Assembly: GCA_029781035.1 (NCBI GenBank)
Contig: JAKOXK010000085.1
Coordinates: forward strand, 1-49,067
From: Armatimonadota bacterium
Lineage (GTDB): Bacteria > Armatimonadota > Fimbriimonadia > Fimbriimonadales > Fimbriimonadaceae
Direction: 5' to 3'
DNA: 49,067 bases
Shown in pieces: positions 10,837-47,646 of this stretch. Under the pieces are notes generated by a model. That model was not told the DNA's origin and made no database searches. It was given only the letters and a program-made list of their open reading frames with translations. The position numbers were made by a program, and so were the translations under genes. Each line of letters opens with the position of its first letter. Positions within the stretch are counted from its first letter, which is position 1.

Positions 10837-12929
10837 TCCTCTTGAGCTTGGCTTTGACGGCAAGCCTCAAATCGCTTCCCGCCGATTTGAATTGGCGCGA
10901 ACTCGGCCCCTCACCGATTTCGGGTGGATTCAGTGGACGTGTTGCCGCGATTGGGTGCAGTGCCACCGATGCCAACAAGTACTACGTCGGAGGCGCCGAC
11001 GGTGGTGTCTGGAAGACGACCAATGGCGGTACCACCTGGATCAACTTGACCGATGAACAGCCGACGAGCTCTGTCGGGGCCATCGCGGTCGATCCGACCA
11101 ACGACAACGTGGTGTACGTGGGTACGGGTGAGGCCAACTATGCCAACCACAGCCGTTACGGACTTGGCCTCCTGAAAACGACTGATGGCGGATCTTCATG
11201 GTCGTTGCTGGCTCAGTCGACCTTTGCGGGACGCACGTTCTCCAAGATCGTGATCGATCCGACCAACACCCAGGTGCTCTTTGCCTCCATTGCCGCGGCC
11301 GGTGGATTTCCCGAGAAAGCTGCGGCCAAGGGGCATCCGTCGAAAGACGGGCCCTTGGGCGTGTTCAAGTCGACTGACGGAGGCGTCACGTGGACGCAGC
11401 TGCTGAACGGGATCCCCAACCAGGCGGGCACGGACATCTCCCTTTGTTCCAGCAACCCGAGCATCGTCTATGCGGCGATCGGCCGGCCTTTCGGCTCGAC
11501 TCAGAACGGGGTCTATCGCTCGACAGATTCCGGTGCGAACTGGTCGAAACTGGGGGGCGGACTTCCGACGGGCAACGTCGGACGTGTCGCCGTCGCGGTG
11601 TCTCCAGACGACTCGAACCGGGTGTATGCCCTTTATGTGAACCCGTGTGACTCGGCTGGGAACAACGGAACGACACTCAATGGCTATAAATCCACTGATG
11701 GCGGCGCCACTTGGACCACGGCTCCTGTCGGGAGCTTTCAGGCCACGTATGGCTGGTACCTTTGTGCAGTCGGTGTCCAGCCAGGGAGCCCCTCGACGGC
11801 GGTCTATGCCGGCTATGACCTGTTACGGACCACTACAGGCGGGGCGTCCTTCTCGACCATCACCACTCAACACGTGGACAACCACGCCATTGCTTGGGAT
11901 GCGAGCGGCCGATTGTTGTGCGGTTGCGACGGCGGGCTGTTCCGATCGGCCAACAATGGGAGCTCGTGGATCAACCTCAACACGGGATTGGGGATCACGC
12001 AGTTCTACGCTGCGATATCGTTGAGCCCGGCCAATACGGACCTCGTCCTGGGCGGACTGCAGGACAATGGCACCGTTCAGCGGAACGGCAACACCAGCAC
12101 GTGGGGCAACTATATCGGCGGTGACGGTGGTTACACGGCCATCGATCAGCTCCAGCCAAGCCACGAGTTCGCCCAGTACCAGGGCGCAGGCGATATCTAC
12201 CGCTCCACGAACACGGGCGGCAGTTGGAGCCCGGTCGGAACCGGGATCAGTGGAGCCGACAGGGCCGCCTTCTTCACCCCGGTTGAGATCGATCCCACGA
12301 ACTCCAATAGAGTTCTCTTGGGGACTCAGCGGGTCTACAGGAGCACTAACGGTGGAACCTCTTGGGCAGCCATCAGTGGCGACGTCACGAACGGGGCCGG
12401 TGCGATTCGCGCCATGTCGATCTCAGCCTCCAATCCGAACACCGTCTGGCTCGCCACGACGGACGGCAATGTTTCGCGGTCCACAGACGGTGGAGCGACG
12501 TTCACGAAGATGCTGACCGGTGTGCCGGGCTGGCCTCGAGTGACTCGGGAAGTGACGGTTGATCCGATCAGTGACCAAACGGTCTACCTGGCGGTTTCGA
12601 ACTTTGGGATCGACCAGGTGAGGCGAACGATCAACGGTGGATCGACCTGGCAGACGTTGGACGGTGACCTCCCGGACGTTCCTGTGAACGTCGTGGTTCC
12701 GGACCATCGCTATCCCAAAGTGATCCTCTATGCCGGAACGGACGACGGTCTCTATGCAACGATGGACGAAGGATCTCATTGGGCGCGGTTTGGCAGAGGC
12801 TTGCCTCATTGCCCTGTGATCGACATCAAGATCGATGTGCCGCACAACCGGATGGTTGTCGGGACGCAGGGCCGCGGTGCGTGGCAGATCACCCTCCCAC
12901 AGCTCATTGGCCCGGGCATAAAGAAGTGA
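10833..12929 (+). CDS. Secreted BNR / sortilin-type beta-propeller protein
   Basis: This 698-aa protein has a short signal peptide, then many BNR (Asp-box) repeats of the form S/TxDGGxTW spaced roughly 50-70 residues: TTNGGTTW, TTDGGSSW, STDGGVTW, STDSGANW, STDGGATW, STNGGTSW, STDGGATF, TINGGSTW. Between them lie the strands typical of sortilin/VPS10-like ten-bladed propellers (IAVDPTNDNVVYVGTGE). Such domains occur in sialidases, xyloglucanases and adhesive surface proteins. No catalytic residues could be assigned, so glycosidase activity is possible but unproven. The GTG start at 10833 overlaps the preceding gene by 4 bases. An imperfect hairpin (AACCCC ... GGGGTT) follows the stop. Confidence 0.85.
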   Translation: MILLSLALTASLKSLPADLNWRELGPSPISGGFSGRVAAIGCSATDANKYYVGGADGGVWKTTNGGTTWINLTDEQPTSSVGAIAVDPTNDNVVYVGTGEANYANHSRYGLGLLKTTDGGSSWSLLAQSTFAGRTFSKIVIDPTNTQVLFASIAAAGGFPEKAAAKGHPSKDGPLGVFKSTDGGVTWTQLLNGIPNQAGTDISLCSSNPSIVYAAIGRPFGSTQNGVYRSTDSGANWSKLGGGLPTGNVGRVAVAVSPDDSNRVYALYVNPCDSAGNNGTTLNGYKSTDGGATWTTAPVGSFQATYGWYLCAVGVQPGSPSTAVYAGYDLLRTTTGGASFSTITTQHVDNHAIAWDASGRLLCGCDGGLFRSANNGSSWINLNTGLGITQFYAAISLSPANTDLVLGGLQDNGTVQRNGNTSTWGNYIGGDGGYTAIDQLQPSHEFAQYQGAGDIYRSTNTGGSWSPVGTGISGADRAAFFTPVEIDPTNSNRVLLGTQRVYRSTNGGTSWAAISGDVTNGAGAIRAMSISASNPNTVWLATTDGNVSRSTDGGATFTKMLTGVPGWPRVTREVTVDPISDQTVYLAVSNFGIDQVRRTINGGSTWQTLDGDLPDVPVNVVVPDHRYPKVILYAGTDDGLYATMDEGSHWARFGRGLPHCPVIDIKIDVPHNRMVVGTQGRGAWQITLPQLIGPGIKK

Positions 12930-18381: not shown

Positions 18382-21300
18382 ATGGCCCGATTCGTGATGT
18401 CTCTTCTCTGCCTTCCGGCCGCCGCCGCCGCGCAGATCTCGCCACCCAGGATGGTGAGGATGCCGGACATACACGGGGACAGCGTGGTTTTCTGTGCTGA
18501 GGGAGACGTTTGGCTTGGATCGGTCGCCAAAGGCACGGCAGAGAGACTCACGACCGACCCCGGCGAAGAAGCGAGACCGAAGTTCTCGCCTGACGGGAGG
18601 GCCATTGCCTTCACTGCTTCCTATGAAGGCGGGCGCGACGTCTACGTCATGCCGACCGAAGGTGGGATGCCTCGGAGGCTCACCTTTGATCCCGAAGGCG
18701 CCGACATGGTCTGTTGGACACCGGACAGCAAGAACGTCGTTTTTCGGTCACGCAGGGACTCGTACGTTGGCCCGCGGCTGTTCCAGGTGCCTGTTGGAGG
18801 CGGACTGCCGGAGGCTCTTCCGATGGAGAAAGGTGCTCAGGCAAGCATCTCACCAGATGGTGAAAGGATGGCCTATTGTCCGTTCCCGATCGAGGACCAC
18901 TGGTGGAAGCGATACCACGGTGGATTGGCCAACCACATATGGATCGAGGACATTGCGGCCCACACGTTCAGACGCATTGACGACAGCGACGTCAATGAGC
19001 AGTATCCGGCATGGGCAGGCGGGAAACTGTATTTCGTGACCGAGCGGGACGGGAGTGCCAACCTTTGGGTGTACGACACGGCAAACAGAACAGAGAGGAG
19101 ACTGACCGACCACAAGGGCGTTGACGTCAAGTTTGCTTCGACCGACGGCAAGAAGGTCGTGTACCAGTTCGGCGATGAGCTTTGGGCTTACGACATTGCA
19201 TCAGGAGTCGACGAAGAACTGAAACTCGCTTTGCGGACAGACAGCCTGCATTCCATGCCAACCACCGTGCCAGGCAAGGTGGGTGAATGGGCTCTCGGGC
19301 CGACGGGCGCCAGGATCGCTATGGTGGGCCGCGGCCAGCTTTTTACCGCCCCTGCAAAGGAGGGCGACATACGGCCCATCTCTCCGTCGATCGCCTCTAT
19401 GACAAAACAGCCGGCGTGGTCGCCGGATGGTAAGACGCTGGCCTTTGTTAGTGACCGTGACGGCGAAGAGAATGTGTACTTGGCGCCGACTGACGGTAAC
19501 GGAAAGGCGCGAAAACTGACGAGCGAATCGAAACTCGTGCTAGGCGGGCTGAGGTGGTCGCCAGACGGCAAGCGGCTGCTCATGGAGGATGTCGCGCAGA
19601 ACCTGTGGATTGTCGACGTTGCCACGGGAGCGAAGACTCTCGTGGTCCACAACGCCTTCCAGGAGGTCACCGACGCCGTGTTCTCTCCCGACAGCAATTG
19701 GGTGGCGTTCTCGCAGCAAGAGAACCTCTTCGTCCAGTCCCTCTATCTCTACAACTCGCAGTCGAAGTCACTTACAAGAGTCACCCAATCTCCGACGAGG
19801 GATTCGATTCCGGCATTTGACCCAGACGGGAAGTTCCTGTACTTCCTCAGCGAGAGGAAGGTCGAACCAAAGTGGGATGCGTTCGACTTCCAACTCGACG
19901 TACAGGATGCGACCAAGGTCATGGCTGTGACGCTGACAAAGGAGGGACAGTCACCGTTCCTCATCGGCAGTGACGAAGAGCCTAAGAAGGAGGACAAGGA
20001 AGATGCGGGCAAGCACGATGCCAAGTTCCGTATCGATGTCGACGGCCTCCCGGACCGGGTGTTCGAGCTACCTTTGACCGAGGGTGCATACAAGTCCCTC
20101 ACAGCCGTGCCTGGCGGCAAGGTCTACTACTTGGCGAAGGATGACTTGAAGGCATACAGCCTGTCGGACAAGAAGGAGACGACGATCACATCAGGTGTCG
20201 CGTCGTTCCAAGTGTCGCAAGACGGCAAGTCGGTCGCGGTCGACAAGGCGGGTGCGATCAGCATCGCACCCGTGGGTTCGCCCATGGGCGACGATGCCAA
20301 GAAGGTCGATCTGAGTACATGGCGGGTGGCGGTCGAACCTCAAAAGGAATGGCATGAGATGTTCCTGCAGGCGTGGCGCAACGTCCGCGACACTTTTTAT
20401 GACCCGAACACGCACGGGCAGGATTGGAACGAGGTGAAGACGAGGTACGAAGCGCTCTTGCCTGCAGTGGGTTCACGGGGAGAACTCAACGAGATCCTCG
20501 GACAGATGATCGCTGAACTGAACGTTTCGCACTCGTTCACGGGAGGAGGCTGGACTCGGCTAAGCGATCCGCCGGTTCCCAAAGTCGGGTTCCTCGGGGT
20601 GACTTTGAAGTGGGACGGCGGTGCGTACAGGATTGAGCATATTGATCGCGGTGATGGGTTCGACGACAGCGACCGATCTCCACTGGCCAGTCCTGGTCTT
20701 GGGGTGAGCGAAGGCACCTACCTATTGTCGATCGGCCGCACCGCACTCAGCCAGGCGCACGATCCGTACGAGTCGTTGGACGGTATGGCGGGCCATGTTG
20801 TCACGTTGACCGTCAACGACAAGCCATCGCCGGAAGGCGCCCGGACCATTCGCGTCCGAGCGATGGAAAGCGGCCGACAAGCCGAGTATTGCGACTGGGT
20901 CGGACGGAATCGGTCTTATGTGTCCAAGGCCTCACCGAACATCGGTTATGTCCATATCCCAGACATGGGAGAAGAGGGAATGGCTGAGTTCAGCAAGTGG
21001 TTTTACGCCAACCTTGACAAGGACGGCATGGTGATCGACGTGCGGTACAACGCGGGAGGCATCACCAGCGGCATGGTGCTTGAGCGACTGCGGCGGGTCA
21101 TCTTTGAGTACGACCAGAGCCGCTACGGCGTCCCAGAGCCCTACCATCGAATGGGATTTCTGGGAAGGGTAGTGGTGTTGTGCAACGAGGGCACCTCAAG
21201 CGATGGTGAGTACTTCTGTACGGGGTTCCGCGCCATGAAGTTGGGCAAGACAATCGGGACACGGACGTGGGGAGGGTTCATGGCAGTCGGTGGCGTCCAG

Positions 21301-30662: not shown

Positions 30663-31157
30663 TTAGCCCTGGCGCCTCGTCTCGGCAGCTTGCTTCAACA
30701 CGGAAGCCGTTTGGCTTTCACGGAAGCCCTGGATCTTGGCGGCCAGGTCCGGATCTTGGAGGGCCAGGATCTGTACGGCCAGTAACCCAGCGTTCCGGGA
30801 GTTCCCGATCGCAACGGTCGCCACAGGTACGCCGGGCGGCATTTGGACGATCGAATAGAGAGAGTCGACACCGGACAGAGACCGGCTCGACACCGGCACC
30901 CCGATCACGGGCAGCGTCGTCAAAGAGGCGATCATTCCTGGCAGGTGGGCTGCGCCACCTGCTCCAGCGATGATCAACTTGAGTCCGCGCGTCGCGGCCG
31001 ATTTCGCATACTCAACCATCCGGTCAGGAGTACGGTGTGCACTGACTACTTCGAGCTCATACGGTACACCGAACTCCTTCATGGTCTCCTCGGCGGCGAC
31101 CATGGTGTCTAGGTCGCTGTGTGATCCCATGACGATGCCGACGAGGGGGTCAGTCAT
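30663..31157 (-). CDS. purE: N5-carboxyaminoimidazole ribonucleotide mutase
   Basis: This 164-aa enzyme catalyses the N5-CAIR to CAIR step of purine synthesis. Signatures are [26 protein letters not shown] (catalytic His), [18 protein letters not shown] and [22 protein letters not shown]. It is class I (mutase) by the SAHR motif and length, so it would need PurK, which is not in the window. A TACCAT box lies 6 bases before the start, divergent from ftsZ. Confidence 0.96.
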
Positions 31158-31354
31158 GTCTCGATGGTACCGCCTTTGGCGCGAGAACTCCGTGTGGCAG
31201 CCTGGGTTGGCCGATGGGGCGTGGCGTTTGATTCCCTATCAGCCCGTCGGCAGGGGCGGATTCGACCGCAGGATGGCCAAGACGCGCCTAGCCCCGTCAA
31301 TGTGGAAAAGTTCCCGCTCCTTTTGCTTTCGCTGCGGCGTCTTCAAACACGATT

Positions 31355-31372
31355 CACAACCACTTGGTTGTG
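31355..31372. promoter_or_regulatory. 18-bp palindrome upstream of ftsZ
   Basis: CACAACCACTTGGTTGTG has perfect 8-base arms around CT. It ends 17 bases before the ftsZ start and sits just ahead of a weak -10-like TACGGA (31377-31382). The position suits a repressor operator; the binding protein is unknown. Confidence 0.5.
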
Positions 31373-31389
31373 CCAGTACGGAATCTGAT

Positions 31390-32514
31390 ATGAGCCCGAA
31401 GAACCTGTTTGAGACCCAGGCGATCATCAAGGTCATCGGCGTCGGTGGCGCCGGGTGCAACGCTGTCAACCGCATGGTCAGCACGGGAGTGCAAGGCATT
31501 GAGTTCATTGCCATGAACACTGACCGCCAAGCCTTGGAGACTTGTCTCGCGACAACCAAAGTCGTGCTTGGGGAGAACCAGACTCGCGGCCTCGGTACTG
31601 GCGGCGACCCTGAGCGCGGTCTCCAGGCGGCCAAGGAGAGCGAAAAGACGATCATCGAGCTTGTCGAGGGTGCGGACATGGTCTTTGTCACCGCCGGCAT
31701 GGGTGGAGGAACCGGCACTGGTGCGGCACCGCACGTGGCGGAACTTGCCAAACGACTCGACGTCCTCACCGTCGGCGTCGTGACAAGGCCCTTCGGCTTT
31801 GAAGGTCCGAGACGGAAACAAAACTCGCTGAGCGGCCTTGATCGGCTCCGCGACCGAACCGATACCCTCATTGTCATCCCGAACGACAACCTCATGAACG
31901 TCGTCGAGCGCAAGACGTCGCTTCAAGACGCGTTCCTGGTAGCGGACGACATCCTCCGTCAAGGCGTCCAAGGGATCAGCGACATCATCCTTCGGCCTGG
32001 ATTGATCAATGTGGACTTTGCCGACGTGAGATCAGTCATGAAGGACGCGGGTGTCGCCCTCATGGGGATGGGACACGGCGTGGGAGAGCAGAGGGCACGC
32101 AACGCGGCCGAGGCTGCGGCCAACTCACCGCTTCTGGAGACGGCCATCTTGGGAGCGAAACGCCTCCTGGTAAACCTGACCGCTGGTCCGGACTTCACGA
32201 TCGGTGAGGCCCATGACGCCATGGAGTATCTCCTACAACTCACTGACGCCGACGATGCATCAATCTTCATGGGCCAGGTGATCGACGACTCCATGGACGA
32301 CGAAGTGGTCGTCACCCTCCTGGCGGCGGGCATGAATGGCCAAGCGCGGCACGTCATCGATCAAGACATGTTCTCGGCGCCGGCTCCCCGAAGCCGCCGC
32401 GAGCCCGAACTGGAGCCTGCACCCTCTTCGCGCGGCGTGCCGAAACCGATCGAGATCGAGGAACTGGAATTGGATATCCCGACCTTCTTGCGAAGGCAAA
32501 GAACCGGCAACTAG
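31390..32514 (+). CDS. ftsZ: Cell division protein FtsZ
   Basis: This 374-aa tubulin-like GTPase forms the division ring. Motifs: IGVGGAGCNAVNRM, tubulin signature GGGTGTG (residues 105-111), the T7 synergy loop NVDFADV (N207-D212), then an Arg/Pro/Glu-rich linker and the conserved C-terminal peptide DIPTFLRRQ that binds FtsA or similar anchors. The frame is open far upstream (30970), but ATG 31390 gives the normal N-terminus. No mraZ, mur, ftsA or ftsQ gene is nearby, so ftsZ is outside a dcw cluster here. Confidence 0.97.
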   Translation: MSPKNLFETQAIIKVIGVGGAGCNAVNRMVSTGVQGIEFIAMNTDRQALETCLATTKVVLGENQTRGLGTGGDPERGLQAAKESEKTIIELVEGADMVFVTAGMGGGTGTGAAPHVAELAKRLDVLTVGVVTRPFGFEGPRRKQNSLSGLDRLRDRTDTLIVIPNDNLMNVVERKTSLQDAFLVADDILRQGVQGISDIILRPGLINVDFADVRSVMKDAGVALMGMGHGVGEQRARNAAEAAANSPLLETAILGAKRLLVNLTAGPDFTIGEAHDAMEYLLQLTDADDASIFMGQVIDDSMDDEVVVTLLAAGMNGQARHVIDQDMFSAPAPRSRREPELEPAPSSRGVPKPIEIEELELDIPTFLRRQRTGN

Positions 32515-45973: not shown

Positions 45974-46000
45974 CGGGCTCGGGACAATGTCCCGAGCCCG
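45974..46000. terminator. Strong hairpin between converging gltX and lipoprotein genes
   Basis: Thirteen-base perfect arms CGGGCTCGGGACA and TGTCCCGAGCCCG are separated by a single A. It begins 8 bases after the gltX stop and 25 bases beyond the end of the converging lipoprotein gene, so it could end transcription from both sides. No T-tract follows. Confidence 0.65.
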
Positions 46001-47620: not shown

Positions 47621-47646
47621 GAGCCCAGGAGAATTCTCCTGGGCTC
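47621..47646. terminator. 26-bp perfect palindrome after the small lipoprotein gene
   Basis: Two 13-base perfect arms meet at GAATTC (arm 1 GAGCCCAGGAGAA, 47621-47633). It lies 20 bases beyond the stop of the minus-strand lipoprotein gene. It would form a long stem in RNA and is probably its terminator, although no T-tract follows. Confidence 0.6.

Follow-up and report, generated by a model that had tools for sequence, protein, structure and literature searches.

A second ftsZ gene of an Armatimonadota bacterium with a conserved two-block promoter element, a putative leader hairpin and a probable link to an ECF sigma factor encoded with dnaN

Results

The ftsZ2 locus

The window analyzed here is the whole stretch of 49,067 nucleotides, and the features under study lie in and around the upstream region of an ftsZ gene within it (Table 1). 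Judging by its named relatives, the window belongs to Armatimonadota, close to Fimbriimonadia. A reading made from the sequence alone (the sequence-only reading) had named the gene ftsZ, had placed it outside a division cluster, and had pointed to an 18-bp palindrome with perfect 8-base arms, 17 bases from the start codon. All of this was upheld: the product scores 396 bits with TIGR00065 (cut-off, 295.2), the gene does stand apart from a division cluster, the arms of the palindrome (31355-31372) enclose a 2-base centre, and the ATG is at 31390. The product also exceeds the curated cut-offs of PF00091 (tubulin/FtsZ GTPase domain, 165.9 bits) and PF12327 (FtsZ C-terminal domain, 84.5 bits), and its translation contains GGGTGTG, NVDFADV and LDIPTFLRRQR, which we take to be, respectively, the GTP-binding motif, the T7 loop (NxDFADV) and the C-terminal anchor peptide of FtsZ.

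Table 1 Features in and around the ftsZ2 upstream region (positions in the window)
Feature	Position	Strand	Basis or remark
purE, divergent neighbour	30663..31157	-	not a required part; found divergent in only 21 of the 81 loci
DnaA-box-like site TGTGGAAAA, reverse complement TTTTCCACA	31301..31309	+	motif search among upstream regions of ftsZ2
-35-like block GCTCCTTTT of the conserved promoter element	31316..31324	+	EM model, GnnnC(T)TTT
-10-like block CGTC of the same element	31338..31341	+	EM model; G-N3-C-N17-CGTC counts
Palindrome CACAACCACTTGGTTGTG	31355..31372	+	read as a putative 5′ leader RNA hairpin
ftsZ2, second FtsZ paralogue, 374 aa, C-terminal peptide LDIPTFLRRQR	31390..32514	+	

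The same reading had further proposed that an operator of this gene would be the main control point for division. This view is not supported, because the genome carries a second ftsZ in an ordinary division cluster. The latter gene, the usual ftsZ of this genome (ftsZ1), is located on contig C82 in the order murC-ddl-ftsQ-(unknown)-ftsA-ftsZ, where the names other than ftsZ were recognized by eye from the translations. The presence of ftsZ1 rules out that the gene in the window is the only ftsZ of the genome, and the window gene is called ftsZ2 below.

Two FtsZ matches were found in nearly all good genomes of the family, and the ftsZ2 type formed one clade (43 rows, support 96) in a tree calculated from 122 FtsZ proteins. 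Genes of this type were found in the families f1 and f5 and in one f3 genome, all belonging to the same order, and each of the 14 f2 genomes searched had at most one FtsZ match. We regard ftsZ2 as an old FtsZ paralogue; Armatimonadetes are named among the phyla with two FtsZ copies in an excerpt of PMC8178401. A separate observation concerns genome G038 of family f3 (L131/L305, G038:C5:7200-11249): an ftsZ2-like gene is followed there by a dprA-like gene and then by dnaN, and a DnaA-like AAA reading frame lies divergently upstream of the ftsZ2-like gene. An ftsZ paralogue and the clamp gene are thus in physical linkage in that genome, which lacks the sigma factor described below.

As for the divergent neighbour, a role in purE regulation was rejected: the 60 loci (among 81) that have no divergent purE still keep the ftsZ2 arrangement.

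A two-block promoter element upstream of ftsZ2

Comparison of the ftsZ2 upstreams showed that the arrangement around the palindrome is kept in about 80 family genomes, with a conserved element of the form GnnnC(T)TTT-N13-CGTC(C/T), whose copy in the window spans 31316-31341. In an EM model in which spacers of 9-18 were allowed, the spacer of 13 received a weight of 0.96 among 81 dereplicated ftsZ2 upstreams, and the log-likelihood was 551, as compared with 42 for shuffled sequences; the search was seeded with a pattern spotted by eye, the same seed was used for the control, in which the letters of each sequence were shuffled, and the 81 loci were dereplicated by upstream k-mers only, so that they do not count independent events. 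The exact pattern G-N3-C-N17-CGTC was present in 82 of the 88 ftsZ2 upstreams, as compared with 142 of 2670 shuffles and 2 of 20 ftsZ1 upstreams. The weight matrix gave a best score of 3.9 upstream of the 20 ftsZ1 genes; for 69 ftsZ2 sites the leave-one-out median was 18.5.

The upstream region of ftsZ2 is under selection. The sequence-only reading had let the palindrome abut the likely -10 box, which was not confirmed: the conserved -10-like CGTC (31338-31341) lies 13 bases upstream of the palindrome. No sigma-70-type site was found in 31160-31460.

The -10-like block is of the CGT type expected of ECF promoters, CGTC being present upstream of both ftsZ2 and the sigma gene described in the following section. 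The -35 block, GnnnC(T)TTT, does not have the AAC that most ECF promoters carry and that the original ECF criterion required; this requirement has since been relaxed, later versions keeping the domain criterion only (PMC8103513, in part).

An ECF sigma gene preceded by the same element

The matches of the element pattern in the relatives led to a gene for a sigma factor of 181 residues. This first lead was one of 57 pattern loci inspected, and the test over all orthologues was made afterwards. The protein contains PF04542 (residues 30-96) and PF08281 (residues 118-169), scores 79 bits with TIGR02937 (cut-off, 42.9), and belongs by its domains to the ECF class. A single-copy orthologue (E ≤ 1e-50) was found in 76 of the 85 family genomes, and the sigma factor was present in all 8 f5 genomes; the 14 f2 genomes and the families f3 and f4 yielded weak paralogues only or none. 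Among the orthologues in these 76 family and 8 f5 genomes, 38 loci (30 of the family and 8 of f5) were fetched and examined.

The same element precedes ftsZ2 and the sigma gene. CGTC lies 7-11 nt before the sigma ATG in all 30 family loci, and the G and C of the -35-like block are correctly spaced in 29 of them. With the matrix trained on ftsZ2 alone, the best site fell 7-16 nt ahead of the sigma start in 36 of the 38 loci; 16 of the 38 sites exceeded the 99.9% level of the shuffled maxima and 25 exceeded the 99% level, while the remaining 13 were below the 99% level, yet correctly placed. The score was 5.7 or less for six weaker ECF paralogues. As these upstream sequences stand, the mRNA of the sigma gene would have almost no leader and would lack the hairpin. 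In most of the sigma upstreams (L254-L283), a TATACT/TTAAACT-like box was also seen about 20-30 nt upstream of CGTC, which is perhaps a housekeeping promoter of the sigma-dnaN operon.

The 88 ftsZ2 loci were then grouped according to the occurrence of the element and of the sigma gene: 76 have both, 3 have neither (G031, G092 and G038), 6 have the element only, and 3 have the sigma gene without the exact element. This co-occurrence is the strongest support for the link between the sigma factor and ftsZ2, with the qualification that it counts genomes, not evolutionary changes, and that related genomes are not independent. Five of the six element-only genomes (G000, G015, G016, G036, G081 and G084) are without any dnaN, and in G081 dnaN is cut at the contig end; since dnaN is also missing or cut, the absence of the sigma gene is very probably an assembly gap. 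One of the six is the assembly from which the window comes (G000, a 96%-complete MAG), where the missing sigma gene and dnaN apparently reflect such a gap. Several other MAGs of the family are without the same sigma-dnaN segment, as if it were hard to assemble or bin. Among the loci having the sigma gene without the exact element, G014 and its near copy G091 show a 14-base spacer (L098), and G094 has no element at ftsZ2.

These comparisons argue strongly that the conserved ECF sigma factor drives ftsZ2; it would then bind both promoters. The common element in itself shows co-regulation, not the identity of the protein that reads it. Another sigma factor or an activator, common to ftsZ2 and the sigma-dnaN operon, could be the reader, the sigma factor found here being a fellow target, and many ECF paralogues are available for this role (at least 12 candidates per genome, few in g29). 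We regard this alternative as possible but much less probable: g29 and f3 have neither the element at ftsZ2 nor this sigma factor, and ECF sigma factors are commonly autoregulated (PMC8103513, in part). Reading of the element by the sigma factor itself is most likely.

Genome-wide, the promoter pattern was counted in the genus together with a reversed control (12 vs 8, 12 vs 8, 5 vs 5 and 24 vs 10), and the counts are only slightly above the control, so that the regulon looks small. In G009 the pattern occurred 17 times against 3 in the reversed control, which may point to a larger regulon in the genus of G009. The same element was also seen before the gene of a DUF5684 small membrane protein in two species of the own genus (L218, own genome C43:14669; L210, G002), making this gene another candidate target of the sigma factor.

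DnaA-box-like sites upstream of the element

The motif TG[TG]GGA[AT]AA, on either strand and no more than 70 bp upstream of the -35-like block, was found at 40 of 81 loci, against a background of 0.015 per 75 bp. Its forward sites are concentrated around -15, -25, -35 and -45 relative to the block: 31 of the 36 forward sites are located at -15/-16, -25/-26, -34 to -36 or -44/-45. When distinct positions alone were used, off-phase sites at -61 and -71 to -73 among them, 36 of 5000 random draws reached the observed phasing value. A protein that binds along a single face of the helix would require spacing of this kind, in steps of ten bases.

The sequence TGTGGA[AT]AA resembles the DnaA box, the 9-mer TTATCCACA bound by DnaA (PMC8203912, in part). 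The window site is TTTTCCACA, and the exact TTATCCACA is present at the corresponding place in some relatives. No convincing oriC-like cluster of TGTGGA[AT]AA was found around dnaA in the own genome or in three complete relatives, nor was oriC itself found; for want of such a cluster the assignment to DnaA stays putative. The 10-mer contexts in the own genome fall mostly within reading frames, with no obvious regulon. In L224 (G105:C1:2710041 and 2710171), two nearby TGTGGAAAA sites were seen beside an nrdR-like gene (named by eye).

The palindrome as a putative leader hairpin

The palindrome is the sole inverted repeat of 7 bases or more within 31160-31400, arms up to 30 bases apart being considered. 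In RNA it would fold into 7 pairs with an ACUU loop (22 nt, -9.2 kcal/mol); Rfam gave no match on the window. Longer perfect palindromes occur elsewhere in the window at 47622-47645, 45976-45998 and 20249-20272, an example being AGCCCAGGAGAATTCTCCTGGGCT.

The corresponding region of the orthologues, just downstream of the element, has differing sequences that tend to fold into a hairpin. Over 77 orthologous leaders, the mean fold z was -1.08 (se 0.16) at +5 to +40 from CGTC, with values close to 0 at most other positions and about 0 downstream, and the signal was weaker when the leaders were anchored on the start codon than on CGTC. In the same genomes, 134 leaders of other genes had no dip at the equivalent distance from their start codons. 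It was also found that the sense strand of the 77 leaders folds more stably than the antisense strand by 0.41 z (se 0.11) and that G-T pairs number 80 against 62 in the leaders; the two results speak for a structure in RNA rather than a symmetry of the DNA. The hairpin of the nearest relative (L084) keeps the core CCACTTGG, and, as seen by eye, an outer A-T pair is changed to C-G. Transcription from ECF promoters usually starts 6-10 nt after the -10 block, and a start at this distance from CGTC would bring the hairpin to the very start of the ftsZ2 leader. The best reading of these data is that the ftsZ2 mRNA carries a short RNA hairpin close to its 5′ end and that the palindrome is the version of it found in this species. 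The simplest idea of its role is that it may protect the mRNA or tune its translation.

Could the palindrome be a chance inverted repeat, the average fold signal coming from a subset of genomes and the leaders merely varying? Perfect 8-base arms with a centre of 0-8 bases are common, with 26 nested matches in the window against 8-14 in five dinucleotide shuffles, so that only its position makes this palindrome notable. In addition, only 15 of the 77 leaders fold individually better than 95% of their shuffles, and some have no clear hairpin. This explanation nevertheless seems unlikely to us, because the leaders show the fold signal only at a single position with respect to the promoter element, and the 134 control leaders lack it at the equivalent position.

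The sequence-only reading had interpreted the palindrome as an operator of ftsZ, for which its conservation upstream of orthologous ftsZ genes and its occurrence elsewhere in the genome were the proposed checks. Binding of a dimeric repressor of ftsZ2 would suit the perfect symmetry and the promoter-proximal position. However, the sequence is absent in the 3 other genomes of the genus and in the rest of the family, and no other ftsZ2 locus has it among the 30 upstreams, and then the 89, that were searched. The exact sequence is single-copy in the genome, the search of which yielded one 2-mismatch copy at position 12843 of the window, within an unrelated 698-aa reading frame. Furthermore, the palindrome lies downstream of the conserved promoter element, and folding in the 77 leaders favours the RNA strand over its complement. 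With its sequence unconserved in the orthologue upstreams, an outcome that the sequence-only reading had itself named as refuting, the palindrome was rejected as a DNA operator of ftsZ, which we now consider improbable. That the palindrome terminates transcription on the strand towards purE is hardly credible: the only terminator-like match of the region is indeed on the minus strand at the palindrome (tail AATCGTGTTT), but the shuffled mean for such matches is 0.4 (sd 0.8), the tail is a poor T run, the minus-strand purE starts beyond the palindrome at 31157, so that the stopped transcript would have to originate inside ftsZ2, and the arrangement is kept, as noted above, at the loci that have no divergent purE.

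The sigma-partner-dnaN operon

The gene dnaN is located downstream of the sigma gene on the same strand in 37 of the 38 loci, and the 38th ends at a contig edge. Between the two genes lies a partner gene encoding about 95 residues, which overlaps the sigma stop codon in most loci. The NF052375 'anti-sigma factor' model matches 19 of the 37 partners weakly (best E 1.8e-5), and zf-HC2 matches 9 of them, also weakly; the HxxxCxxC zinc motif is absent in all 37. The AlphaFold2 model of the partner consists of four helices and a loose tail (pLDDT 79, pTM 0.48; tail pLDDT about 57-60). Its top Foldseek matches are the anti-sigma factors ChrR, RseA and RslA, at E values without significance (E ≥ 1.1), and a sequence search of solved structures with the partner profile gave nothing convincing.

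The C-terminal tail of the partner shows QxxLP[LIMF] in 34 of the 37 proteins and QxxLF in 1, in agreement with sliding-clamp-binding motifs, of which QLSLPL (Hda) and QxxLF are known examples (PMC3836487 and PMC12309361, both in part). No such motif was found in the first 70 residues of the 37 partners or in 89 ftsZ2 proteins. Because the next gene, dnaN, encodes the clamp, we read the partner as a putative clamp-binding anti-sigma factor.

Discussion

The palindrome is thus interpreted as the hairpin of the ftsZ2 leader, and ftsZ2 itself as a gene under an ECF-type promoter, which is most likely read by the putatively autoregulated sigma factor of the sigma/partner/dnaN operon. We consider this interpretation as a whole probable. 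The sigma factor encoded with the clamp would drive its own operon and ftsZ2, the latter being transcribed from GnnnCTTTT-N13-CGTC with a start about 6-10 nt after CGTC. Several further roles are hypothetical: the clamp may relieve or strengthen the hold of the partner on the sigma factor through the tail of the partner, a DnaA-like activator at the phased TGTGGA[AT]AA sites may add to the ftsZ2 promoter, and the leader hairpin may protect the ftsZ2 mRNA or tune its translation.

On a more tentative level, and with less than even confidence, the circuit may be a replication-sensing switch. The amount or loading state of the clamp would, via the partner, free or hold the sigma factor, which would set the synthesis of the clamp and of the second FtsZ; the DnaA-like protein would be a second input, and the hairpin would set the mRNA output. 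The sigma-ftsZ2 circuit would tie cell division to DNA copying.

How bacteria couple division to replication is a long-standing question, and even for E. coli and Caulobacter a route through transcription is contested. If true, the present scheme would provide a compact, testable wire from replication to division, by way of a sigma factor that shares an operon with the sliding clamp and controls a second FtsZ. Gating by the clamp, if real, would add a new type of input to ECF systems, in which the clamp would act as an intracellular signal to sigma factors whose class is associated mainly with envelope and stress signals. In the open-licence literature searched, we found no report of an ECF sigma factor encoded with dnaN or controlling a second ftsZ.

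Comparison with known systems

Archaeal FtsZ1/FtsZ2 and the other two-FtsZ systems likewise have two FtsZ proteins per genome. The ftsZ2 of the present study differs from them in being confined, in our sample, to some families of one order, and separate regulation of the copies does not appear in the excerpts of PMC8178401.

In Caulobacter crescentus, a replication protein (DnaA) has been proposed to act at the ftsZ promoter (PMC8203912, in part), which resembles the arrangement considered here. The present case differs in having a single, helically phased DnaA-box-like site at the ECF-type promoter of a second ftsZ, with DnaA as a putative binder only.

Clamp-dependent control of DnaA by Hda/HdaA (RIDA) also employs a regulator with a QxxLPL hexapeptide, QLSLPL in Hda (PMC3836487 and PMC12309361, in part). 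Hda is an AAA+ protein that acts on DnaA, whereas the motif here ends an anti-sigma-like protein encoded beside dnaN, for which clamp binding is only predicted.

The autoregulated systems of an ECF sigma factor with an anti-sigma factor are similar in several respects: the sigma factor has sigma-70 regions 2 and 4 only, the -10 block is CGT(C), an anti-sigma-like gene overlaps the sigma gene, and the promoter element of the sigma gene is shared with the putative target genes. The present system is distinguished from the known ones by a -35 block of GnnnC(T)TTT in place of AAC and by a partner that is small, soluble and without zinc ligands. Moreover, its operon runs on into dnaN, and its conserved far target would be a paralogous ftsZ.
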